From contig JNJK01000007.1 in assembly GCA_000701625.1 (NCBI GenBank), positions 124,001 to 188,000 on the forward strand: a stretch of 64,000 nucleotides of DNA, written 5' to 3'. The stretch is from Lachnospiraceae bacterium MC2017 (GTDB lineage Bacteria > Bacillota > Clostridia > Lachnospirales > Lachnospiraceae). The stretch's first letter is position 1. The number at the start of each line of letters is the position of its first letter. Shown here piece by piece: positions 3,079-14,830 of this stretch. A program made the translations under genes and the position numbers. The notes beneath the pieces are model-generated. The model saw only the letters and a program-made list of their open reading frames with translations, was not told where the DNA came from and did no database searches.

Positions 3079-3099
3079 GTGTAAACTTTGACTGAAAAA
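3079..3099 (+). promoter_or_regulatory. Copy 1 of a 21-bp upstream motif
   Basis: Starts GTGTAAACTT and ends CTGAAAAA. Two close copies lie at 8819-8839 (before the GrpE/Hsp70 operon) and 13872-13892 (before the J-domain gene). This copy sits 81 bases before the start of the small membrane protein. Function unknown. Confidence 0.4.
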
Positions 3100-3180
3100 G
3101 TGAGTGATAACTCCATGTATTATATGTTCATCAGCAAGCGCTGAACGAACAAATAATAATCAACAAAAAGGAGACTTATC

Positions 3181-3510
3181 ATGAACAGATTAAAAATCGC
3201 ACAGTACATCGCATTAGGAGCAACAGCATTTTCAGTAATCGGGGTAGTATTAATAGGAATGTTCGGTTCTGATGTTGGAGCATATCTGATGGCAATTGGT
3301 TTCATCGCAGGAATTGTGTCTTATGTTTTTGGCGGACTTGGCACAGCTATAAAAATGGCTGGCGGAATTGCAAAGTGGGGTTGGCTCGTTGTTCCTTTTC
3401 CTTATGATATAATGACATTCTTTTTATCATTTTTTACAGCGATCTACGTCTTTATATTCATTCCAATTATTCCGGTTAGAAAAGCATACAAGGAGAGCAT
3501 GTATTATTAA
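3181..3510 (+). CDS. Small membrane protein of unknown function
   Basis: A 109-residue protein with a good ribosome binding site (AAGGAG about 7 bases before the ATG). Hydrophobic stretches near residues 10-30, 35-55 and 75-98 suggest three membrane segments, with a Lys-rich first few residues and a basic C-terminus. I do not recognise a family. A strong terminator follows at 3553. The upstream region carries the first copy of a 21-bp motif also found before the GrpE/Hsp70 and J-domain genes, so it could belong to the same regulon; that link is inference. Confidence 0.7.
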   Translation: MNRLKIAQYIALGATAFSVIGVVLIGMFGSDVGAYLMAIGFIAGIVSYVFGGLGTAIKMAGGIAKWGWLVVPFPYDIMTFFLSFFTAIYVFIFIPIIPVRKAYKESMYY

Positions 3511-3552
3511 AGAGAATGATCTGTTAGATACATGACTCCTTATAAAGAAAAG

Positions 3553-3590
3553 CCAGACCTGATATATAATAAAAAGCAGGTCTGGTGTTT
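3553..3590 (+). terminator. Rho-independent terminator
   Basis: CCAGACCTG (3553-3561) pairs with CAGGTCTGG (3577-3585), followed by TGTTT. It separates the small membrane protein from the HTH-FHA-kinase genes. Confidence 0.75.
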
Positions 3591-3611
3591 ATAAGATGAG
3601 GTATGTACGTA

Positions 3612-4637
3612 ATGGATAATCATTTAAAAGACAATAACTACGAAACAGTATTCATTAGGGATGAGATTTCCAAATGTGAGGATGTTGATGAGCTTAGGGA
3701 ACGTATTTTCCCTATGATTAAAACACAGCAAGAGCAGTGGGCAAAGAAAATCAACGAAATAATAGTTGAGAGCGGGCTGAATAAGTCACAGTTTGCTGAA
3801 ACATGTGGTGTGAGCAGAGTTGCTGTTAATAAATGGAGCAATGGTTCACTGCCCAAAAATAGGGAGACTTTTTTAAGGATAGGAATGACTGCTGGCTATG
3901 GTTTGGAGAAAATGAATCAGCTGTTACAGCGTTATGGACAGTACCCTGCCTTATATTCAAAGAGTCTCGAGGATTGTGTTTGCATCTATGTACTAGATAA
4001 GGAATATGGTAAAGAAACAATAACAAAATACAAATATATTCTGGACAAGATAAAGCAAAATATTATAAGAGATGATAAAAATGAAGCTGATGATTTAAGC
4101 ACGGTTATTTTTGATGAGAAACTTTCTAACGTGAAAGACGAAACGGAATTAGAAACGTTTATATATGATAATTCAGCCATTTTTTCAACTACATATCATA
4201 AATTTTATGCATATGTGAAAATGCACATTATGGCAAATTATAGCGGTTTCGGCGGTACTGTATTTGAATTAGCTGAAGGACAAGGATGGTCATCATCGCT
4301 TAGACAATGTGTATCAGCCATTAGGCAAAGTAAGTGGTATCCGACAAGAAACAAAATAATATCTTTAGGAATCCATTTAAGCATGGATCATGAACAAATT
4401 GATAAAATGCTTGAATTAGCTCATATGGAGCCGCTATGTGCAAAAAATATATTTGAGAGTGTGATCATGTTTATCCTCGATGATGCCAGCTTAAATAATA
4501 TGCTTGATGTAGATTCAGAGGATTTTGATCCGGATGAGTTATGCAGATATTCAAGGGAAATACTTGAAACTCTCGATCTGCCAGAAGTGGATGCCTTTAT
4601 CACAGAATTACCGGAGATAAATGATGATGCGTGGTAA
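3612..4637 (+). CDS. HTH protein with duplicated helical domain, first gene of the kinase cluster
   Basis: 341 residues from the ATG at 3612; the ATG at 3603 is less likely because GAGG at 3598 would be only one base away. Residues about 35-75 form an XRE-type helix-turn-helix (SQFAETCGVSRVAVNKWSNG). A helical block follows (IGMTAGYGLEKMNQLLQ, then a conserved Pro). A second copy appears near the C-terminus (LGIHLSMDHEQIDKMLE, then AHMEPL), so the protein looks internally duplicated. The acidic C-terminus overlaps the FHA gene by 17 bases, implying translational coupling. Probable DNA-binding regulator or adaptor of the FHA-kinase unit; I know no named family. Confidence 0.75.
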   Translation: MDNHLKDNNYETVFIRDEISKCEDVDELRERIFPMIKTQQEQWAKKINEIIVESGLNKSQFAETCGVSRVAVNKWSNGSLPKNRETFLRIGMTAGYGLEKMNQLLQRYGQYPALYSKSLEDCVCIYVLDKEYGKETITKYKYILDKIKQNIIRDDKNEADDLSTVIFDEKLSNVKDETELETFIYDNSAIFSTTYHKFYAYVKMHIMANYSGFGGTVFELAEGQGWSSSLRQCVSAIRQSKWYPTRNKIISLGIHLSMDHEQIDKMLELAHMEPLCAKNIFESVIMFILDDASLNNMLDVDSEDFDPDELCRYSREILETLDLPEVDAFITELPEINDDAW

Positions 4638-5178
4638 AAAAGGAAATAATTTAATTTTAATCGAAAATGGGCTGCTGACTTCATATATGCTTGATGATAA
4701 AAACGTGTGGGAAGTAGGCAGACCTTCAAAGGGAAATATCCCTGATATAAAGCTGAAATCCGCAACAGTCAGCAGGAAACATGGTAAGTTCCAAAATATG
4801 GATGGAGTTTGGTTTTATCTGGATTACAACAGTAAAAATGGAACAATATATAACCATAAGCATATCAATGCCGGGATAAATGGAAGAGTAAAGCCGGTTA
4901 TGCTTGAAACGGGAGATACTTTTTTGTTTGGAGGCGGAGAAGAAGAGGTTATAAACAGTAAAACTATCTGGGGACTTTATACAACGAGAGTATTCGAAGA
5001 CTTATGGAGAATCATGGATTCAAAAGGATATAAACAGTTACAGTTTATTTCGGATGGGAGAATTACGACGATGATGTCTCCTGAGAAAGGGCTTGTGATC
5101 GAAAATGAGAATGGAATCGCTATTTATATGGGCGATATTATATATATGATCGGTGATATGGAAGTAATTGGCTGCTAG
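4621..5178 (+). CDS. FHA-domain protein
   Basis: 185 residues. The N-terminal half is a forkhead-associated domain, which binds phosphothreonine peptides: GRP for strand 3, then SRKHGKF and the later NSKNGT with NHKHI. These contain the Ser, Arg, His and Asn that normally contact the phosphopeptide. The second half (about 110-185) is unrecognised. Three ATG codons in a row at 4621-4629 follow GGAG, so the exact start is uncertain by two residues. It overlaps the preceding gene and is followed after 18 bases by the first kinase, so it is the likely reader of that kinase's phosphorylation. Confidence 0.88.
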   Translation: MMMRGKKGNNLILIENGLLTSYMLDDKNVWEVGRPSKGNIPDIKLKSATVSRKHGKFQNMDGVWFYLDYNSKNGTIYNHKHINAGINGRVKPVMLETGDTFLFGGGEEEVINSKTIWGLYTTRVFEDLWRIMDSKGYKQLQFISDGRITTMMSPEKGLVIENENGIAIYMGDIIYMIGDMEVIGC

Positions 5179-5196
5179 CCGGAAGGTGTTTCTTAC

Positions 5197-7047
5197 ATGC
5201 TAAGTTTAGATAGGATTGGAATTGAAAAAATTCTGCTTCAGATAGAAAAATTTATTAATACAAGATACAAATTTCTTAAAGTGAATAATGAGCTTAGTTT
5301 GTTGGGAGCCGGGGGATTTTCATATGTTTATGAAATGTATGATGAGCAGATGCCTGAAAAACATTACGCCGGTAAAATAATCGGATTAGGTAACAAGGAT
5401 GTAAGTGAAGATTTAATTTTTGAAACGACCCAGATCCAATATTTTTTGAGCGAACAGTCTGAAAATATCATGAGAGTATTTGAGTTATGGACTATGAAAT
5501 TGGCTCTGGATGAAGTTGGAAATGTTACAGAAATAATAGGTGTCAATGAAGAAGGATATGACAGTGCGGAAGGGGGAACCGTTCAAGTTGTTCTGATGGA
5601 AAAACTTGAATGTGTTCTATCTAAAGACAAATACGGAAACGTAGAACTGAATCGGGAAGAGCTCAAAACCGAAGAAGGTGTGCTGCGTTTTGCTGAAGAT
5701 ATCGGACATGCTATTTTTACTGTCCACAATAATGGTTTTTTACATCGGGATATTAAGCTTGAAAATATATTTTGGGATTCTGACCTCCAACAATACAAGT
5801 TGGGGGATTTTGGCATAGCAAAGTATGTTGGGGAAGGTGATGCAGAAACAGTTGTATTTTCTGATGGGTATGGAGCACCGGAGATAGAACGTCAACTGGC
5901 TGAATCTTATAACTTGACTGCAGATATATATTCATTTGGAATAACACTTTTTTTACTTCTAAATGAATTAAGATTTCCGGCATCGGATAGTTATCGTGCT
6001 AATGTGGTTCAATATTCTAAAGACTTTATAGTTCCGGCACCAGTTAATGCGTCTGAAGAGCTGGCTAAGATAATTAGGGAAATGTGCAGCTATAATGTTG
6101 AAGATAGATACCAATCGGTTGAAGAAGTTCTTATGGATATAGGAACTATTGATGGAAATTATTCTGAAAATGGATTCACAGAATATGAAGATCTTGAAAC
6201 AGAAACATACCGAGAAGTTGATGATAATCCAACAGAAACATATCGTGATGATCAAATAGAAGAACAGGATGATAAAAGAGAAATACAAAAAATAATACCT
6301 CGGCGGAGAAAGAAAGAGAGAGAGCTGACACGAGAAGAATGGAAGAAGAAGGTTGCGGCAGCGAATAAAAGATATAATAGCTCAAGTATATGGAGAATGA
6401 TTCTAACAGCTATATTTTCATTTTGTCTGCTCAAAAGTTTTGTGCCGGATGCACCGTATGTGAGCCGTTGGGAATTATGGATCTTGCCTTTAGCGGTATT
6501 AGTAGAGGCAGTTTTGCAAAGGATAAAAGAATTTCATATTGAGTTTGGATTTATTACTATAGGGATAGCCGTTTTTTCGATGCATTATCTTGGCGCAGGT
6601 GTTCCTCAGATAGCTGCAATTATTGCGTTGTTGGTTGGAATACCGGCTATTACTGCAGGATTCTCGCTTGGAATGTTTTTATGGATCGCGCAGATATTAT
6701 TTCAAAAGTATCTATGGCTGAATTTCTTAAATAAATGGGATTTGGGATGGCTGGCAATAGTATTATTAGTTGTTTTTGTTGAGAGGTATATCATATATCG
6801 AGACGAGTGCAACAAGTTAAATAGATATGAAATAATTGTCTTTCTTATTTTAAATTTTATATGGTTATTGATGATAATTACAGGTGTGATATTACTGATT
6901 TTGTCGCATTTTCATGTAGTTTCGATACCGGAAGCAGTAAAGCATATACATCTTATTAGATCGGGTATATGCCTCGTAATAATCGGATGGTTTTTTACGG
7001 GGGTTGATGATGAGGATGAAGAAGTAGATGAATCTTTGGACGAGTGA
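5197..7047 (+). CDS. Ser/Thr protein kinase with C-terminal polytopic membrane region (kinase 1)
   Basis: 616 residues. The kinase domain spans about 25-315: Gly-rich loop GAGGFSYVYE, ATP-binding Lys in AGKIIG, catalytic loop HRDIKLEN near 182, DFG near 204, and a GAPE activation-segment motif. All catalytic residues are present, so it should be active. A Thr/Glu-rich linker and a basic stretch (about 340-395) follow, then roughly seven hydrophobic segments to residue 600 and an acidic tail. This differs from PASTA-type PknB, which has one membrane span and an outer domain. The 3' end overlaps kinase 2 by 20 bases. Likely a membrane kinase whose tail senses or anchors; substrate unknown, with the neighbouring FHA and HTH proteins as candidates. 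Confidence 0.92.
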   Translation: MLSLDRIGIEKILLQIEKFINTRYKFLKVNNELSLLGAGGFSYVYEMYDEQMPEKHYAGKIIGLGNKDVSEDLIFETTQIQYFLSEQSENIMRVFELWTMKLALDEVGNVTEIIGVNEEGYDSAEGGTVQVVLMEKLECVLSKDKYGNVELNREELKTEEGVLRFAEDIGHAIFTVHNNGFLHRDIKLENIFWDSDLQQYKLGDFGIAKYVGEGDAETVVFSDGYGAPEIERQLAESYNLTADIYSFGITLFLLLNELRFPASDSYRANVVQYSKDFIVPAPVNASEELAKIIREMCSYNVEDRYQSVEEVLMDIGTIDGNYSENGFTEYEDLETETYREVDDNPTETYRDDQIEEQDDKREIQKIIPRRRKKERELTREEWKKKVAAANKRYNSSSIWRMILTAIFSFCLLKSFVPDAPYVSRWELWILPLAVLVEAVLQRIKEFHIEFGFITIGIAVFSMHYLGAGVPQIAAIIALLVGIPAITAGFSLGMFLWIAQILFQKYLWLNFLNKWDLGWLAIVLLVVFVERYIIYRDECNKLNRYEIIVFLILNFIWLLMIITGVILLILSHFHVVSIPEAVKHIHLIRSGICLVIIGWFFTGVDDEDEEVDESLDE

Positions 7048-8770
7048 GGAAATATCAAAAATCTTAATACAGCTGGATGTTATGCGGCTTCCTTTTTCAA
7101 AGTACGCACTTACTATTAGTGACGGAAAATTGAAATTACTCGGACGCGGCGGTTCTGCTGATGTATATGAAGCGCAGACAAGAACATCAAAAAAGTGTAA
7201 ATATGCCATGAAGGTTATTGGTTTTAGAAACCAAAATATCGATTCGGACTTTTTTAATGAGTCTGTGCAGGTTCAAAAAGATATTGGTGATTTTCAGGAG
7301 AATGTAGTAAAAATATATGCTCACGCTGAGATATGGATAACACTGGATGAAAATGATTCCATTATTGATGCAGTTAAAGAAAAGCCTGATACAGAATCGA
7401 ATAGAGTGATGAAACTTCAGTTTGTCCTTATGGAGAGAATTTCATCTGTAATTTCAAGAACTAAAGCCGGAAATATCAAAATCATTCCTGAGCAGTTAGC
7501 GTCCGGGGATGAGCAGGAACTATTGAAATTAGCGTATGATATTGGAACGGCATTAAAAAGAGCTCATGACAGAAATGTCTTACATAGAGATGTTAAACTA
7601 GAAAATGTCTTTTACTCCGAAAAAAATAAGCGATATAAATTAGGTGACTTTGGAATTGCTAAGAAAACAGTGGATGGATTTGCAGGTACAATAGCTTTTA
7701 CTAAGGGATATGCAGCTCCGGAAGTTAGAACATCAGATGAAAGATATGATAATACAGCGGATATATATTCCTTTGGCATGATGCTATATGTACTTGCTAA
7801 TGGCATAAAATTTCCGGATTCGAAAACGTATAATGTTAATTCGGGAATGCAATATGAACCGGGATATATAGTGCCATTTCCCGAAAATAATATTTCAGAA
7901 GATTTATACTATGTTATCGCCAGAGCATGTATGTATGATGCAGATCAAAGATATCAATCAATGGATGATATGATTCTTGATATTGAAAAGATAATGTATG
8001 ATGATAATCTGGGGTATAAAAAAGAACATAAAAAAACATATTTGGTTGTAGGAACATTGCTGCTGGGCTTAGGGATCATATCATGGAAACTAACAATAGC
8101 TCAGGAAATGCATATTCAGTTTACTATATGGAAATACATATTTTGGTGTTGTTGTTTTGGAAAGGGTATATTTAAATTACTAAAAAAAGATACAGGTCTT
8201 TTAAGTTCAGCGGTCCTTTTGGTTGGAATATATCTGTTTGTATCAGATGGATTTTCGTGGGGAAAACTTTTGCTTTTGTTATGGATGATCGGTTCAGATG
8301 GAATGAGTTCCGGTTATTTAGGGGGAAGTGTATTAATTTCAAGTATTGTTTCTGCATTGCAGAAATTTGGCGGAATATCATTAAATTCGACCGGTGATTA
8401 TAGTTGGATAGCAATAACGTTTCTTTCTGTTTCAATAGTTTTGTTATATCAATATATGTTGTTGGCTATACAAGATCGTATAACAGCAAGGTTGTATTAT
8501 AAAAATGATTTCTTTTGGATTCTGCCATGCCTAGCATATACATCACTTATTTGGCAAGGAATGGTTCATCCTTCGCAGCTGGAACATTTTTATTTAAGAT
8601 TTTTCGGAAAGCACGTTTTTGATTTTATGAATTCGTTTGATAAAACTATGGTTGGAATCTATGGATTGGGATTTTGCATATTTTGGATCATAAGAGAAAA
8701 AATATTGATCTTACAGCAAAAAAGAATGATACAAAGAATCAAAATGAAGAACGAAGAATATTATGAATAA
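7028..8770 (+). CDS. Ser/Thr protein kinase with C-terminal polytopic membrane region (kinase 2)
   Basis: 580 residues, a paralog of the preceding kinase. Motifs: GRGGSADVYEA, AMKVIG with the ATP-binding Lys, HRDVKLEN near 187, GDFGIAKK, and AAPE. The kinase domain ends near 330 and is followed by about seven hydrophobic segments and a basic C-terminal tail. Its kinase half resembles kinase 1 far more than its membrane half, suggesting a tandem duplication whose membrane parts then diverged. The start lies inside the end of kinase 1, so the two are probably co-translated. A terminator at 8779 ends the HTH-FHA-kinase transcript. Confidence 0.92.
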   Translation: MNLWTSEEISKILIQLDVMRLPFSKYALTISDGKLKLLGRGGSADVYEAQTRTSKKCKYAMKVIGFRNQNIDSDFFNESVQVQKDIGDFQENVVKIYAHAEIWITLDENDSIIDAVKEKPDTESNRVMKLQFVLMERISSVISRTKAGNIKIIPEQLASGDEQELLKLAYDIGTALKRAHDRNVLHRDVKLENVFYSEKNKRYKLGDFGIAKKTVDGFAGTIAFTKGYAAPEVRTSDERYDNTADIYSFGMMLYVLANGIKFPDSKTYNVNSGMQYEPGYIVPFPENNISEDLYYVIARACMYDADQRYQSMDDMILDIEKIMYDDNLGYKKEHKKTYLVVGTLLLGLGIISWKLTIAQEMHIQFTIWKYIFWCCCFGKGIFKLLKKDTGLLSSAVLLVGIYLFVSDGFSWGKLLLLLWMIGSDGMSSGYLGGSVLISSIVSALQKFGGISLNSTGDYSWIAITFLSVSIVLLYQYMLLAIQDRITARLYYKNDFFWILPCLAYTSLIWQGMVHPSQLEHFYLRFFGKHVFDFMNSFDKTMVGIYGLGFCIFWIIREKILILQQKRMIQRIKMKNEEYYE

Positions 8771-8778
8771 GCAGAAAG

Positions 8779-8812
8779 ACTCTACGCATTATATATGTGT
8801 AGAGTTTTTTTT
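8779..8812 (+). terminator. Rho-independent terminator after kinase 2
   Basis: ACTCTACGCA pairs with TGTGTAGAGT (one G-U pair), followed by a run of eight T. Ends the HTH-FHA-kinase operon. Confidence 0.85.
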
Positions 8813-8818
8813 CTTGGT

Positions 8819-8839
8819 GTGTAAACTTCTGCTGAAAAA
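8819..8839 (+). promoter_or_regulatory. Copy 2 of the 21-bp upstream motif
   Basis: Starts GTGTAAACTT and ends CTGAAAAA, as at 3079. It lies about 100 bases upstream of the promoter of the riboswitch-controlled operon. Confidence 0.4.
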
Positions 8840-8942
8840 GGATAGCGCTTATAGGGTTAGACTTACATTATCAAATTTGAAACAAAAAAATTACAACAAT
8901 TAAAAAATTAAATACGCACAGAAATATGTGAATTTATTACAA

Positions 8943-8971
8943 TCGATATTACTAGAGATTTCTTATATAAT
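8943..8971 (+). promoter_or_regulatory. Probable sigma-A promoter of the GrpE/Hsp70 operon
   Basis: TCGATA (-35) and a perfect TATAAT (-10, 8966-8971) with a 17-base spacer. Transcription would start near 8978, just before the riboswitch, which fits. Confidence 0.55.
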
Positions 8972-8989
8972 AATTCACGTATTTTGAAA

Positions 8990-9066
8990 GCAACTGAATG
9001 GCAAAACGTAGGAAACTGCGTGACGCAAAGCTATAGGGACTGTAAAATGTCAGCCAGCTGCATGTA
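8990..9066 (+). promoter_or_regulatory. Class I cyclic-di-GMP riboswitch (GEMM-I)
   Basis: Matches the GEMM-I core in order: GGCAAA entry strand, hairpin CGTAG-GAAA-CTGCG with a GNRA-type loop, the hallmark TGACGCAAAGC, then GGG.CT with a short variable hairpin, CAGCCAG, and the closing CTGC. It directly precedes an intrinsic terminator and the GrpE-Hsp70 operon. The motif match is seen directly; ligand identity follows from the family; whether ligand turns expression on or off cannot be read from the sequence. Confidence 0.9.
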
Positions 9067-9071
9067 ATGGG

Positions 9072-9105
9072 AGCATTGTGCAAGTATCTGTACAATGCTT
9101 TTTTT
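9072..9105 (+). terminator. Riboswitch expression-platform terminator
   Basis: AGCATTGT pairs with ACAATGCT around a 12-base loop, followed by seven T. It lies six bases after the riboswitch and 26 bases before the GrpE-like start, as expected for transcriptional control by c-di-GMP. Confidence 0.85.
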
Positions 9106-9130
9106 GTGGCTTTTTAGGATGGAGGCTTAT

Positions 9131-9694
9131 ATGAACAATATTGATGATCTTAGCGAGAAAATAATTCAGCAAACTGAAGAAATCAGTAATTCAGATGATG
9201 TGCTCAACGATGAGATCATGGAAATCCTGTTAAATACAAGAGAACAGGGACAAATGATGGAGCACATGATCAAGAATCAAATTGAAGTAAAAGATGAAAT
9301 GATCAATAAACTTCATAAAGAACTTGATTATTATAAACAGGATGCTGCAGACCGATTCGTTGATCAATTATTGAAAGCTGTAATTAAAGTTCGAAAAGAC
9401 ATGCACAAATTATCAACCTCTGAGAAATGGGATTCAATGTCGGTTGAGGATATTAAGCGAGAGTATGTGTACGCAGTAGAAGACTTAACGGATTTGTTGG
9501 AACAGCAAAATGTTGACCCTTTTCAGTCTGAACCGGGCGATGATTTTGATGCATCCATTCATCAGCCTAAGTTAGAAACAACAGATGATCCATCATTAGA
9601 CAAAAAAATAAAAGAAAGTCTTTCTGAGGGATATAAAAAGGGCAGCAAAGTGTTGATACCGGAACGGGTTATTGTATTTCAGTATAAAAACTAA
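9131..9694 (+). CDS. GrpE-like nucleotide exchange factor
   Basis: 187 residues. The start at 9131 is set by GGAGG at 9121-9125; an upstream in-frame ATG at 9095 lies inside the riboswitch terminator. The first 110 residues are charged and helical, like the long GrpE coiled coil. The C-terminal part carries a GrpE beta-domain pattern: PGDDFDASIH, then SEGYKKG and LIPERVIVF, close to the usual FDP-x-H ... GY ... R.A.V.V. GrpE releases ADP from Hsp70. It lies 25 bases before the Hsp70 gene and is probably dedicated to it, distinct from the housekeeping grpE of the hrcA-grpE-dnaK locus. Confidence 0.82.
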   Translation: MNNIDDLSEKIIQQTEEISNSDDVLNDEIMEILLNTREQGQMMEHMIKNQIEVKDEMINKLHKELDYYKQDAADRFVDQLLKAVIKVRKDMHKLSTSEKWDSMSVEDIKREYVYAVEDLTDLLEQQNVDPFQSEPGDDFDASIHQPKLETTDDPSLDKKIKESLSEGYKKGSKVLIPERVIVFQYKN

Positions 9695-9719
9695 TAAAAG
9701 AAAAAAGGAGATTTAAACA

Positions 9720-11375
9720 ATGGGTTACGTATTTGGAATTGATTTAGGAACAACATATTCTTGTATTTCATATATTGATGAATATGGAAAGCCGGTAGTA
9801 TTGAAGAACAGTGATGGAGACCATACTACTCCTTCTGTTGTTATGGTTGAGTCCGAAGACAATATTATTGTTGGAACAGAGGCAAAGCGTTCTATCGAGA
9901 TGGAGCCGGATAGAACGGTTCAGTTCATTAAGAGAAAAATGGGTAAGGAAAATGATACTGTTACCTTAAATGGAACACAGTATCATGCTCCGGAAATTTC
10001 TTCCATGATCCTCAAGAAAATCGTGAATGATGCAAACGAGGAACTTAGACAGACTGGTGTGCTGAAAGATGGCGAGGCTATTAAGGATGTCGTTATTACT
10101 TGTCCGGCGTACTTTGGCATGAATGAGAGACAGGCAACTAAGACAGCAGGAGAACTTGCGGGATTAAACGTACTAAACATCATCAATGAGCCAACTGCTG
10201 CAGCGATCAGTTATGGTGTTTCAGGCAGTGATAAGAATGAAACAGTTTTAGTATATGACCTTGGCGGCGGTACCTTCGATATCACTGTAATGAATATTGC
10301 AGGCAGTGACATTTCAGTTGTTTGCACGGGTGGAGATGATCAGCTCGGTGGTAAGGACTGGGATGAGGCACTTATGGATTATGTGACAGAGAGATATGAA
10401 GAGGAAAACGGCGAAGATCTTTCTGAGGATCCTGAGACGATCGCTTCTTTATACGTTGATGTAGAAACATGGAAGAAGGCTCTTACATCAAGAGAAAAAG
10501 TCAATATTTCTGTAAATGGACCTGCCGGAAGATTCCGTGAGGAACTTACTCGTACTAAGTATGAAGAGCTGACAAGTGACTTATTAAACAGAACAAAGAA
10601 TCTTCTGGATGATGTATTAGCAGTAGCTGAAAAGCAGGGATATCCAATTTCAAAAATTGATAAAGTACTTCTTGTCGGCGGTTCATCAAGAATGCCTCAG
10701 GTCGCTGCTATGATCGAAAGGGATTACCACGTTACTCCGGTTCTTTCAGATCCGGATGAAGCAGTTGCAAAGGGTGCTGCAATTTATGCTAGTAACGAGA
10801 AGGCATACAATGACTTTATTGAAATAGAAGCTGCAAAGGTAGGAAAATCTGTTGAAGAAGTTAAAGAAGAAAATCTTGTAACAGGAGCGTTGGATCAAAA
10901 GTATGCAAGATTTGGAGGTGCCGGTGCCGGAGAACTTCGTATAAATATTACAAATGTTTTATCTAGAACATACGGTGTTGCAGCTCTTGATAATGGAGAA
11001 GTATTAAGAATCTTCAACATGCTGATGATAAATGATAAGTTACCGGCTACAAAAACTGAAACATTCTATACAAGTGTAGATAATCAGTCTGGGTTAAGCC
11101 TGAAAATCTATGAAAGCAGAAGCACAGATAATGTAATGGATATTGACGGAAGAGAGCCTATTACTGTCATTGATATGAAGTTTAACAAAGCTGTTCCACA
11201 GCATACACCGGTTATTCAGACATTAGCATTGGATAATTCCGGAATTCTCCATATTGTTGCAGAGGAGCAGCTGTATCATTCAAAACTTGATACAACATTC
11301 CAGCTTTCTAATCAGATGACTGAGGCGGAAATGAGTAGTGCTGCATCAAGAATGTCTTCCGCAAATATCGAGTAA
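9720..11375 (+). CDS. Hsp70 family chaperone, short form without the helical lid
   Basis: 551 residues with an AAGGAG site. The ATPase domain is well conserved: GIDLGTTYSC at the start, then NEPTAAAISYG, DLGGGTFD, and VGGSSRMP. The usual linker (DVLLLDV type) is replaced by LRINITNVLS after a variable stretch near 365-400. A beta substrate-binding domain follows, and the protein ends about 25 residues later. The alpha-helical lid of DnaK (600-640 residues) is therefore missing. Expected to be an ATP-driven chaperone or switch working with the GrpE-like protein upstream and the J-domain protein at 13970. Not the housekeeping DnaK. Confidence 0.93.
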   Translation: MGYVFGIDLGTTYSCISYIDEYGKPVVLKNSDGDHTTPSVVMVESEDNIIVGTEAKRSIEMEPDRTVQFIKRKMGKENDTVTLNGTQYHAPEISSMILKKIVNDANEELRQTGVLKDGEAIKDVVITCPAYFGMNERQATKTAGELAGLNVLNIINEPTAAAISYGVSGSDKNETVLVYDLGGGTFDITVMNIAGSDISVVCTGGDDQLGGKDWDEALMDYVTERYEEENGEDLSEDPETIASLYVDVETWKKALTSREKVNISVNGPAGRFREELTRTKYEELTSDLLNRTKNLLDDVLAVAEKQGYPISKIDKVLLVGGSSRMPQVAAMIERDYHVTPVLSDPDEAVAKGAAIYASNEKAYNDFIEIEAAKVGKSVEEVKEENLVTGALDQKYARFGGAGAGELRINITNVLSRTYGVAALDNGEVLRIFNMLMINDKLPATKTETFYTSVDNQSGLSLKIYESRSTDNVMDIDGREPITVIDMKFNKAVPQHTPVIQTLALDNSGILHIVAEEQLYHSKLDTTFQLSNQMTEAEMSSAASRMSSANIE

Positions 11376-11386
11376 AGGGGCAAAAA

Positions 11387-11812
11387 GTGGTAGCATTAGT
11401 AATTTTTTGGTCAGCTGTATTCGCGCTAATATTTTTTGTTGTTGGAATAGTCTTTAAGTATTTGGCGGCAGCAATGAATGCGCTGCTTAATTCTGTAGTG
11501 CAAGTATTAGCCGCTGGCGGTTTTGTGCTGCTAGTCGGGTTTGTTCTATATTTTATATTTGCGATCATAGGTACCATTGTAGAAGAAGGATTTTGGGAAG
11601 GATTTTTATTTATTATTTTAACTGTCTTTTCCATAGCACTTTGTATTGGCCTGTGCATTTCGCTGGGCGGATGGATGTTTGAACTTGCATATGGCATATT
11701 TTGTACTATTTTTGGGTGTGTATCAGCAGTACTTGAATGGATTGCAGCTAAATGTGAAGGCGGATACTATTTTTTTATGAAAGCTATAATTAGCAGAATT
11801 GACAAGTGCTAG
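11387..11812 (+). CDS. Membrane protein of the Hsp70 operon
   Basis: 141 residues with a GTG start, 11 bases after the Hsp70 stop and after a weak purine-rich site. Almost wholly hydrophobic, with three to four membrane segments (about 3-28, 40-65, 70-98, 100-125) and a short C-terminal tail with a few charged residues. No family recognised. The next gene starts 8 bases after its stop, so it is translated as part of the operon. Its position between a soluble chaperone and a large membrane protein suggests it is part of a membrane assembly; that is inference. Confidence 0.7.
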   Translation: MVALVIFWSAVFALIFFVVGIVFKYLAAAMNALLNSVVQVLAAGGFVLLVGFVLYFIFAIIGTIVEEGFWEGFLFIILTVFSIALCIGLCISLGGWMFELAYGIFCTIFGCVSAVLEWIAAKCEGGYYFFMKAIISRIDKC

Positions 11813-11820
11813 GAGGAAAA

Positions 11821-13839
11821 ATGGCTGATATACAGAGTAAAATCCTGAGCAAATATGGAATAGACATTGCTCAAGAAAATATCCTTAAGCTCTATAAAAT
11901 TGACAGCGCTAATATTTCTCCTGCTGAACTTGAAACTAAAATTCAAGATACCAGAAAGAGATGGAACACAAGCATCAATGGTGCTAATGAAAAAAATGCT
12001 GAAAGAGATAGGGCCAGACTTGAAAAAGCTGATAAGTATGAAGCAATTCTAAAAGATGCTAAATTACGCAAGAAAGTATTTGAATTTTATAATAAGCCTG
12101 CGGGGGGATCACAAGGAGGTGGTTCTGCCGCAGGGGCAGGATCTACTGATTTTGCAAAGGAATATTTCAAATTAGTAGGAACTACTAAAAAGATAAGAAA
12201 AGCAGATGTTGATTTCTTCTTTAAATATTATCAATCTGAGCGTAAAAACAAAAAAGCAATTTTGGAAATGCTCAGCAAAGATCTTAAAATAAAAGGTCTT
12301 GGTAAAGAAGATAAGTATGTTGACGAGAATGATTCTTCTGATGAAGAAGGAAAAAAGAAGGATGATTCAAGTCCTATAATTGTAAACTTATTTCAGGAAG
12401 CAACTGTTTTAAAAATCAGAAGAGCTATCGAAAAGTATGAGGAAGCTTCGAAAAGTAATGAGCTTTGTCAAAGATATCCGGAACTTGGAAATAGTTTATA
12501 TGAGTTCTTAAAAATTGATGCTGTTGAAGATGCTAAGCAGTTTACTCAGTTAATGTCTGAACGCAGTAAGGAAGTATATGCTATAAGACAGGAACGCGGA
12601 ACAGAGTATGTTCCTTTGGTTGATCTTTTTAATATTTTGCAGAGCATAGGTGATTATCAAGATATTGTAGATAATATACCGGAGTTCAAGCTGCTGCTAA
12701 AGTATCCTAATTTAACACCATACATGTTCTCTTTTGTTGATATGAAACCAAATACTATAAAAGGTATGGTTGATATTGCAAACAGAGATTATGCATTTAG
12801 AAATGATGTTGATTTTATTCTGAATTATTATAATCCAATACACGATAATTTCGGAATTAGTGATAACAGCATCGGTTCAATCTTACGAAAAGCTGAGAAG
12901 AATGCTAAAAAGAATAAGGTTCTTAATCAGATTGATGAGAAGCTTGGAAGATACAAGAATAACCGAAAGATTTCGATTGGTGCTGAAATCATTCACTGGC
13001 TGGTTTATTGGCCGATTTTTGTACTTTATTTTGTATTTGAAGTAGCAAAGGTTATTTTTACTGGATTACATAGATTTGCAATTCCGGCTTTTATCGTTTC
13101 CTTTTTATTAGAAAGCTGGTTATTGCCTAAAACAGGAATTGAAAACTTATTAGTATTAAGAAAAATATTCTTAAAAAATCAATGGGTACCTTATGTAAAT
13201 GAATTTGTAGGTGTGGACTGCAAAACTACATTTGAAATAATATGTTTCTCGATCGTGGCTGTTTTTGCACTGCTTATAGTTTATTTTTTACCTCCGCTAT
13301 TTATTTCGCGGTATATATCTGAATTTTCAGATGACTTTAACAAACGTTTTGACTGGGTTGGACTTGAAAGAACCTTCAAACAGGTTTTCAAGACCTTAAA
13401 GAAAAAAACAGAAGATCAATATAAAGCTCAGAAAAAGCTGTTTGTTAGAAATAAGGTACCTAAAATTATTATTAATTTTGTGTCTTTGGCACTTTTGATA
13501 GCGATTTTTATTTTTACGCCTAAAGCGTTCCATAGTTATAGTGAAAATATAGGATATGCCCAAGATGCTGAAGAGTCTGATGAAGTTAACATTGATTCAA
13601 CTGCGGATTATGCAGACAGTGAAGATGATGTAATGGTAATAACAAGCAGCTCTGCGAATATTCGTTCAGGAGCTGGAACAGACTATGATGTAATTACTAC
13701 TGCAGCTCAAGGAGATACGTTTATTGCTACAGGAAACCAGGAAACAGATTTAAGTGACAGTGTCTGGTATGAAATATATTTAGACGATGAAAAGACACAA
13801 ACTGGCTGGGCTAGTCAGATAGTAATAGAGTTTCAGTAA
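11821..13839 (+). CDS. Large membrane protein with C-terminal SH3b domain
   Basis: 672 residues; AGGAGG at 11812 sets the start at 11821. Residues 1-85 are charged and helical, ending in KADKYEAILKDAKLRKKVFE. This resembles the tail of J-like domains (A..vL.d...R..Y), but no HPD is present. A Gly/Ser linker follows, then a charged helical domain to about 390. Membrane segments lie near 400-440, 470-495 and 550-570. The outer C-terminus is acidic and ends in a bacterial SH3 domain (ANIRSGAGTDYDVI ... WASQIVIEF), a fold that binds cell-wall material. This suggests a link between the cytoplasmic chaperone machine and the wall. Function unknown. Confidence 0.8.
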   Translation: MADIQSKILSKYGIDIAQENILKLYKIDSANISPAELETKIQDTRKRWNTSINGANEKNAERDRARLEKADKYEAILKDAKLRKKVFEFYNKPAGGSQGGGSAAGAGSTDFAKEYFKLVGTTKKIRKADVDFFFKYYQSERKNKKAILEMLSKDLKIKGLGKEDKYVDENDSSDEEGKKKDDSSPIIVNLFQEATVLKIRRAIEKYEEASKSNELCQRYPELGNSLYEFLKIDAVEDAKQFTQLMSERSKEVYAIRQERGTEYVPLVDLFNILQSIGDYQDIVDNIPEFKLLLKYPNLTPYMFSFVDMKPNTIKGMVDIANRDYAFRNDVDFILNYYNPIHDNFGISDNSIGSILRKAEKNAKKNKVLNQIDEKLGRYKNNRKISIGAEIIHWLVYWPIFVLYFVFEVAKVIFTGLHRFAIPAFIVSFLLESWLLPKTGIENLLVLRKIFLKNQWVPYVNEFVGVDCKTTFEIICFSIVAVFALLIVYFLPPLFISRYISEFSDDFNKRFDWVGLERTFKQVFKTLKKKTEDQYKAQKKLFVRNKVPKIIINFVSLALLIAIFIFTPKAFHSYSENIGYAQDAEESDEVNIDSTADYADSEDDVMVITSSSANIRSGAGTDYDVITTAAQGDTFIATGNQETDLSDSVWYEIYLDDEKTQTGWASQIVIEFQ

Positions 13840-13871
13840 TTAATGCTCATTTTGCACATTGGCGAAGATAT

Positions 13872-13892
13872 GTGTAAAGTTCTCCTGAAAAA
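13872..13892 (+). promoter_or_regulatory. Copy 3 of the 21-bp upstream motif
   Basis: Starts GTGTAAAGTT and ends CTGAAAAA. It lies 77 bases before the J-domain gene, a spacing similar to copy 1 and its gene. Confidence 0.4.
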
Positions 13893-13969
13893 AGCACATC
13901 AAAAAGAAGATATGATTTATTCAGATCAAAGAAAACGGTAAATGTTTTAGTCAGAAAGGAGTAATAGTC

Positions 13970-14830
13970 GTGTTTTGGGTTATTGCAATCATTGTATTAG
14001 TTGTTTTATTTAAGGCAGGTGTGTTTAGAAAGCCTGGTGAATGTCAGAGCTGCAGAAAGACATTAAAGGGAACAGAACAGCAGGTATTTAAAGGGGATAC
14101 ACCATTCTGCTTATGTAAAGAGTGTTCCGATAAAATTCATCCACAGATTTTAAGCTATGCAAAATCTAATTGGTCATATCCTGATTACACTAATTATCTT
14201 GCATGGGAAGAAGCAACAAGAGAGGAAAGAGCACAGTTTGATCCAGATGCAAAATATGGATATGGCTGCGAGCTTAAAGTAGATACGGAAAGAGGTTTAT
14301 TCAGCTTAGGTTCCGGAAGAAAAGGCGGTCTTGTATTTAGATTTGCAGATCTGTCAGATTACGAATTGGATTTCAAACCTGAGGAAGTCAAGGAAGGATT
14401 TTTTGGCGATAAGGTTAAAGGCGATGAATATGTAACAGTCGAAATGGCTGCTCCGAGAGTATACCTTGAAGAAGTAATTAATTATGGCGTGAAACTTGGA
14501 TTAACAAAAAAAGGATTTCTTAGTACTAAGTATGAGTATGAACTGTCTGAAGGATTTTCTGAAGTAATTCGTGCGTTCACAATATGTCTTTATATCGAGG
14601 CTGCGCGCCGCGAGGGCAACTATCAGGAAGAATCCATGAATATTGGTGAAGTTGAAAAGGCTTTAGCTTTATTTATGTTTGATAGTATGGATGAAGTAAC
14701 TCAGGATTCATTGAAGAAGCAGAGAAATGCGTTGATCAAAGCATTTCATCCGGATAATAATGAACAGAATGAGGCTTATTCGCAGAAAATTAATGCAGCA
14801 TACGACTTATTAAGCGGCATGGCTGGTTAA
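13970..14830 (+). CDS. Membrane-anchored J-domain protein with zinc ribbon
   Basis: 286 residues with a GTG start after AAAGGAG. Residues 1-19 are a membrane anchor. A four-Cys zinc ribbon follows (CQSC near 26 and CKEC near 50). The middle 200 residues are unrecognised. The last 45 residues hold the core of a J domain: helix II (KKQRNALIKAF), the invariant HPD, and helix III (INAAYDLL). J proteins stimulate Hsp70 ATP hydrolysis, so this supplies the third component after the Hsp70 and GrpE-like proteins. A C-terminal, shortened J domain is unusual, since DnaJ has it at the N-terminus. Two hairpins follow at 14956 and 14997. Confidence 0.85.
   Translation: MFWVIAIIVLVVLFKAGVFRKPGECQSCRKTLKGTEQQVFKGDTPFCLCKECSDKIHPQILSYAKSNWSYPDYTNYLAWEEATREERAQFDPDAKYGYGCELKVDTERGLFSLGSGRKGGLVFRFADLSDYELDFKPEEVKEGFFGDKVKGDEYVTVEMAAPRVYLEEVINYGVKLGLTKKGFLSTKYEYELSEGFSEVIRAFTICLYIEAARREGNYQEESMNIGEVEKALALFMFDSMDEVTQDSLKKQRNALIKAFHPDNNEQNEAYSQKINAAYDLLSGMAG

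Follow-up and report, generated by a model that had tools for sequence, protein, structure and literature searches.

A class I c-di-GMP riboswitch, most likely an OFF switch, in front of the grpE-hsp70 genes of a Lachnospiraceae chaperone-kinase cluster

The 64-kb stretch of DNA analyzed here (the window, G000:C6:124001-188000) carries on its forward strand a cluster of chaperone and kinase genes (3080-14830) organized in three units: a regulator/FHA/kinase unit, a grpE-hsp70-141 aa-SH3 unit and a J-domain gene. The first unit, which extends to 8770, consists of a small membrane ORF, a 344-aa HTH regulator-like protein (3603-4637; Pfam HTH_3, E 0.0046, below the cut-off), an FHA-domain protein (4621-5178; Pfam FHA, E 2.7e-11) and two protein kinases (5197-7047 and 7028-8770; Pfam Pkinase, E 2.6e-29 and 1.2e-29), both with C-terminal hydrophobic segments (read from the translation for the first). 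It is closed by an intrinsic terminator at 8778-8815, a hairpin of -16.1 kcal/mol followed by a U-tract. The middle unit starts with a GrpE-like nucleotide exchange factor (9131-9694; ATG start; Pfam GrpE, E 9.4e-12), whose ribosome-binding site GGAGG can be read from the sequence at 9121-9125. Then come an Hsp70-like protein of 551 aa (9720-11375; Pfam HSP70, E 5.1e-102), a small hydrophobic membrane protein of 141 aa, which is an open frame with no Pfam match (11387-11812), and a membrane protein with a C-terminal bacterial SH3 domain (11821-13839; Pfam SH3_3, E 1.7e-9). The third unit is a gene with a GTG start for a protein with a C-terminal J-like domain (13970-14830), of which the Pfam DnaJ match (E 6.1e-5, 23.5 bits) is below the curated cut-off of 27.8 bits.

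The Hsp70-like protein has the nucleotide-binding and the beta substrate domains according to Pfam and structure search, and the best structural matches of its model (pLDDT 77.5, pTM 0.78, from an 18-sequence alignment) were DnaK and BiP. The helical lid is missing or reduced, and the length of 551 aa leaves no room for a full one. We rejected the possibility that this is the housekeeping DnaK, because it scored 337.5 bits against the curated cut-off of 822.55 of TIGR02350 and is a 551-aa protein without the full lid. A separate DnaK-type frame of 634 aa, 43% identical, is present elsewhere in the genome (G000:C2). An anti-phage function of the cluster was also rejected, since the PADLOC/NCBIfam matches were to kinase domains in general and far below the NCBIfam cut-offs. 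Elsewhere in the genus, five to six Hsp70-type frames are packed into about 15 kb of one genome (G032:C1:1707237-1722659), in a group that differs from the cluster described here.

Between the terminator of the kinase unit and grpE lies the aptamer of a class I c-di-GMP riboswitch (GEMM-I) at 8990-9065 on the forward strand. It matched RF01051 (c-di-GMP-I) over model positions 1-87 of 87, scoring 57 bits (E 1.6e-8; the cut-off is 35), and it was the single match above the gathering score when the whole 64-kb window was scanned with cmscan; the same model found nothing in 14 control genomes (0/14). The core that the first-pass annotation had read from the letters is all in place: inspection of the sequence located GGCAAA at 9000-9005, a GGAAAC-looped hairpin at 9006-9021, TGACGCAAAGC at 9021-9031 and CAGCCAG at 9051-9057. 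The full-length covariance-model match likewise bears out its assignment to GEMM-I. An A in place of the first G of GGCAAA marks binders of c-AMP-GMP. In the Rfam alignment, this first G (G9000) and the ligand-pairing C (C9061) are both kept. The roles of these two nucleotides are described in PMC9262584 (excerpt). Thus, the identity of 8990-9065 as a true class I c-di-GMP riboswitch is far beyond chance, and the element is predicted to bind c-di-GMP and to control grpE-hsp70.

The expression platform, through which the aptamer would be coupled to transcription, is present. It is an intrinsic terminator at 9071-9105 (forward strand), found by folding and in the sequence, with a hairpin at 9071-9100 of about -14 to -16 kcal/mol and a tract of seven U at 9099-9105. 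A simple terminator scan of 8700-9200 reported none, presumably missing this one because its stem is A+T-rich. The order that had been proposed earlier, an intrinsic terminator and then GrpE-like and Hsp70 genes, is therefore real (9071-9105, 9131 and 9720, respectively). The terminator starts 10 nt past C9061, so that the ligand-pairing C is outside of it.

The position of the terminator relative to this C gave us the probable direction of switching. In the OFF switch Cd1, it is the antiterminator that takes up the ligand-pairing C (C87:G147), whereas in the ON switch pilM it is the terminator (C75:G102) (PMC9262584, excerpt). We scored this position in 137 of 144 other GEMM-I loci, leaving out six without known aptamer length and one that was masked. 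No terminator was found in 41 of the 137, and the remaining 96 were classifiable. The GEMM-I platforms of Lachnospiraceae fall into two cleanly separate architectures by this measure. In 30 of the 96 the terminator starts between 7 and 1 nt before the ligand-pairing C (ON-like), in 66 it starts at least 4 nt after it (OFF-like), and none starts between these ranges. The riboswitch in front of grpE, with its terminator 10 nt beyond C9061, goes with the 66, and OFF architecture, in which c-di-GMP switches the grpE-hsp70 genes off, is the most likely though unproven direction. The opposite direction, with c-di-GMP raising grpE-hsp70 expression, is improbable: nearly a third of the classifiable family members (30/96) are ON-like and class I includes ON switches such as Bc2 of Bacillus thuringiensis (PMC4933901, excerpt), but the terminators of ON-like loci take in the ligand-pairing C and this one does not.

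The terminator arm also contains a possible partner for the aptamer end. Its GCAUUG is an instance of GCAYUG, which is complementary, but for one bulge, to CAGYUGC at the end of the aptamer and occurs in 16 of 62 OFF-like 5' arms against 0.2 expected. Counted among distinct arms only, it occurs in 9 of 60 OFF-like ones (0.2 expected) and in 2 of 28 ON-like ones. There are two possible antiterminators at 9055-9082 (forward strand), both weak by energy, and either would take up C9061. One combines the pairing of 9059-9062 and 9079-9082 with that of 9065-9069 and 9074-9078, and the other pairs CAGCUGC at 9055-9061 with GCAUUG at 9073-9078. A duplex test of the aptamer end against the terminator arm gave p 0.40 for this riboswitch, and p of 0.05 or less in only 11 of 62 loci. 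In the transcript to 9105, the best fold (-37.1 kcal/mol) keeps the terminator, the fold with aptamer and terminator has -33.3 and the antiterminator fold has -27.5 kcal/mol; the antiterminator hairpin alone has -5.4 to -6.5 kcal/mol. Thus, no stable antiterminator was found by folding energies at this platform. The antiterminator is the minimum-energy fold only in transcripts ending at 9082-9091, so that switching would need kinetic control, or else the terminator may be constitutive and leaky. In addition, folding with ViennaRNA, placed on the Rfam alignment, gave a ligand-free pairing of 8990-8996 with 9055-9061, which occupies C9061 and competes with the aptamer.

These energies speak for a relic or a poorly working aptamer with weak or no binding of c-di-GMP, of which the terminator would be a constitutive attenuator. 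The arrangement is moreover not conserved in related loci, and only 11 of 16 predicted c-di-GMP riboswitches of Clostridioides difficile were functional (PMC6366702, excerpt). Against decay, on the other hand, stand the score of 57 bits, a core with all its motifs preserved, an intact platform of the family type and the retention of both the ligand-pairing C and the first G of GGCAAA. On balance we regard a relic as unlikely, though less so than an ON switch.

Upstream of the riboswitch we noticed a sequence motif that recurs in front of every unit of the cluster. It consists of the 19-nt TGTAAASTTNNNCTGAAAA, followed after exactly 19 nt by a -10-like hexamer. All three copies are on the forward strand: 3080-3098 with TATTAT at 3118-3123 before the unit of the small membrane ORF and HTH gene, 8820-8838 with TAGACT at 8858-8863 upstream of the riboswitch, and 13873-13891 with TATGAT at 13911-13916 before the J-domain gene. 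The hexamer of the grpE copy (TAGACT) is the weakest of the three. With up to one mismatch, TGTAAASTTNNNCTGAAAA occurs at three sites in the whole genome, all of them in the cluster (3080, 8820 and 13873), and a single site was found with the backward control pattern. When up to two mismatches were allowed, the window and the 23 related loci together gave 23 sites. At exactly +19, all 23 sites have at least four of the six matches to TATAAT against a background of 5.6%, and 14 have at least five; TGTAAASTTNNNCTGAAAA itself was selected by visual inspection of these sequences, whereas the fixed spacing to the -10-like hexamer is outside that choice. Motif and HTH cassette occur together in the relatives: sites were found in 10 of 10 related loci with the HTH cassette and in 1 of 13 without it (Fisher p 1e-5 by hand count, a test confounded by kinship and by the reach of each locus). 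The 344-aa HTH protein is a candidate reader of this promoter motif, which would provide a handle on the control of an uncharacterized Hsp70-FHA-kinase cluster. A further possible promoter of sigma-70 type (TCGATA-17-TATAAT, 10/12 matches) lies at 8943-8971 on the forward strand, though such sites in the surrounding stretch are not above chance in number (3 found against 2.5 expected).

Since the 8820 copy is upstream of 8990-9065, the riboswitch separates grpE from a promoter that is native and specific to the system. This position limits what it can control. The reach of the riboswitch is confined to the middle unit (grpE-hsp70-141 aa-SH3), because the regulator/FHA/kinase unit is upstream and has its own terminator (8778-8815), and the J-domain unit is not necessarily under its control because of the promoter motif at 13873.

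To know whether the riboswitch belongs to the cluster as such, we compared 23 related loci, of which 22 were obtained by an Hsp70 scan of genome contigs (21 from Lachnospiraceae or clostridial relatives and one distant match from Bacteroidaceae) and one (G108) by a family search. In relatives, the two halves of the cluster either follow another order or are separated. A grpE gene is held by 20 of the 23 loci, and Rfam scans found no c-di-GMP riboswitch in any of the 23, hence in 0 of the 20 with grpE; the first-pass annotation had suggested looking for the same arrangement in relatives, and it is not there. Its statement that the membrane machine is switched by c-di-GMP accordingly holds in part: a riboswitch does stand before grpE-hsp70 here, but switching is not a property of the machine (0/20 relatives), and its reach is limited to one unit. 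The distance from the motif to the grpE start is 311 nt in the window against 35, 84, 108, 132, 142 and 207 nt in six relatives. Leader length alone is no proof of insertion, because a seventh relative (L078) has 419 nt without a riboswitch. The cluster is accessory, since among 48 genomes in the genus only its own has the SH3 gene, as do 2 of 250 in the family. These findings (0/20 relatives, SH3 in 1/48, 311 nt against 35-207 nt) indicate that the riboswitch is an added layer, and they point to insertion in one lineage rather than loss in the relatives. A riboswitch ancestral to the operon and lost in relatives is very improbable, even more so than an ON switch. An element of 120 nt is easily lost, GEMM-I has disappeared entirely from many Lachnospiraceae and any copy is present in only 7 of the 22 relatives' genomes, but independent losses would be needed in all 20 relatives with grpE, and most relatives with the regulator cassette have kept the native promoter motif.

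As for the source of the element, the genome has four GEMM-I copies, the riboswitch at 8990-9065 and three others. A tandem pair (L001 and L002, G000:C11:71462-71726) precedes a gene for a CAP-domain secreted protein (Pfam E 1.3e-11), and the fourth copy (38 bits) precedes a lipoprotein-like frame without Pfam match. We rejected an origin by copying from one of them: the three match the riboswitch in the aptamer core only (89% over 36 nt for the C11 copy), so that no recent duplication within the genome is seen. A mobile origin was likewise rejected, as the best phage and plasmid matches span 17-33% of the 241-nt query and lie in the aptamer region, which gives no evidence for a mobile carrier. 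The nearest relatives of the element within the family cover aptamer and terminator at 77% (G199 and G262) and stand before other genes. The ligand itself is plausible. The 4.26-Mb genome has 43 GGDEF matches, 42 of them above the cut-off, and 14 EAL matches above the cut-off, and c-di-GMP is therefore very likely made.

The chaperone genes had been called an unusual target for this class of riboswitch, and our survey agrees. GEMM-I is carried by 58 of 150 genomes in the family sample. The 144 loci surveyed (30 and 14 from genome scans and 100 picked regions, without some second tandem copies, some cases at contig ends and matches absent from the listing) gave 534 downstream ORFs in 141 cases and none in three. 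BLASTP found no grpE, hsp70 or J gene among these 534 ORFs; with nine cluster proteins and a DnaK as queries, the sole match was a kinase domain (L138). By-eye reading of the first genes after the surveyed riboswitches gave secreted, surface, chemoreceptor and GGDEF-like or signaling proteins. Similarly, tblastn found no cluster protein in 19 further loci with the riboswitch DNA closest to that of the window, and no c-di-GMP riboswitch on chaperone genes appeared among the titles and abstracts listed, which are mostly from outside subscription journals. As no chaperone gene of the cluster is near the other surveyed GEMM-I loci, the grpE-hsp70 target is an outlier in the survey. In short, the sensor is ordinary, a known riboswitch class, and the target is unusual and lineage-specific.

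Putting these together, we consider it probable that the element is a transcriptional OFF switch on grpE-hsp70-141 aa-SH3, added as a layer between the native promoter and grpE. The cluster would have its own promoter type (TGTAAASTTNNNCTGAAAA-N19-TATAAT-like) before each of the three units, and the riboswitch would have been put before grpE. At low c-di-GMP, the 5' arm of the terminator would be occupied by the 3' end of the aptamer (around C9061), so that RNA polymerase from the upstream promoter or promoters would read through. Binding of c-di-GMP would engage C9061 with the ligand and leave the terminator 9071-9105 free to form, and the grpE-hsp70 unit would be cut off. More tentatively, with slightly less than even confidence, the locus may be a two-input gate, in which the HTH-read promoter class of the Hsp70-kinase system and the c-di-GMP OFF riboswitch act together as a lineage-specific rewiring; production of the chaperone half would then require both a call for the system and low c-di-GMP. 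If the OFF switch is true, a protein-folding machine is added to the outputs commanded by c-di-GMP riboswitches, and the locus offers an example of riboswitch recruitment to a new target that can be dated, for which the 20 relatives lacking the element serve as comparison. The two-input gate, if true, would be a natural example of such control over a chaperone machine, and it would capture how a riboswitch acquires a new kind of target.

Finally, the locus can be compared with known systems. It resembles the RF01051 family in its full-length match, all core motifs and the OFF-type terminator platform, and differs in the grpE and hsp70 target, which is absent from the other 144 loci surveyed. 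Like Cd1 (Cdi-1-3) of the C. difficile flgB operon, which is OFF in experiments (PMC9262584 and PMC6366702, excerpts), it is a class I riboswitch with the terminator downstream of the ligand-pairing C. Cd1, however, controls flagella, and its antiterminator is experimental whereas ours is a weak prediction. The gene content recalls the GTPase-centered GAP1-N2 systems, Firmicutes clusters with HSP70, GrpE, DnaJ-like and membrane/SH3-type parts, in which HSP70 and GrpE are in about 14% of neighborhoods (PMC7159879, excerpt). Our cluster has FHA and two kinases instead, and we rejected it as a GAP1-N2 conflict system because no GTPase, GAP1 or FNIII Pfam match was found in nine cluster proteins. 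The PilZ-DnaK proteins CsdK1 and CsdK2 of Myxococcus xanthus also link c-di-GMP to Hsp70-type proteins (PMC10313047, excerpt), and the word riboswitch was not found in that paper by text search. In CsdK1 and CsdK2 the link is made through a PilZ domain in the protein, whereas in the cluster described here it would be made through a riboswitch on the mRNA.
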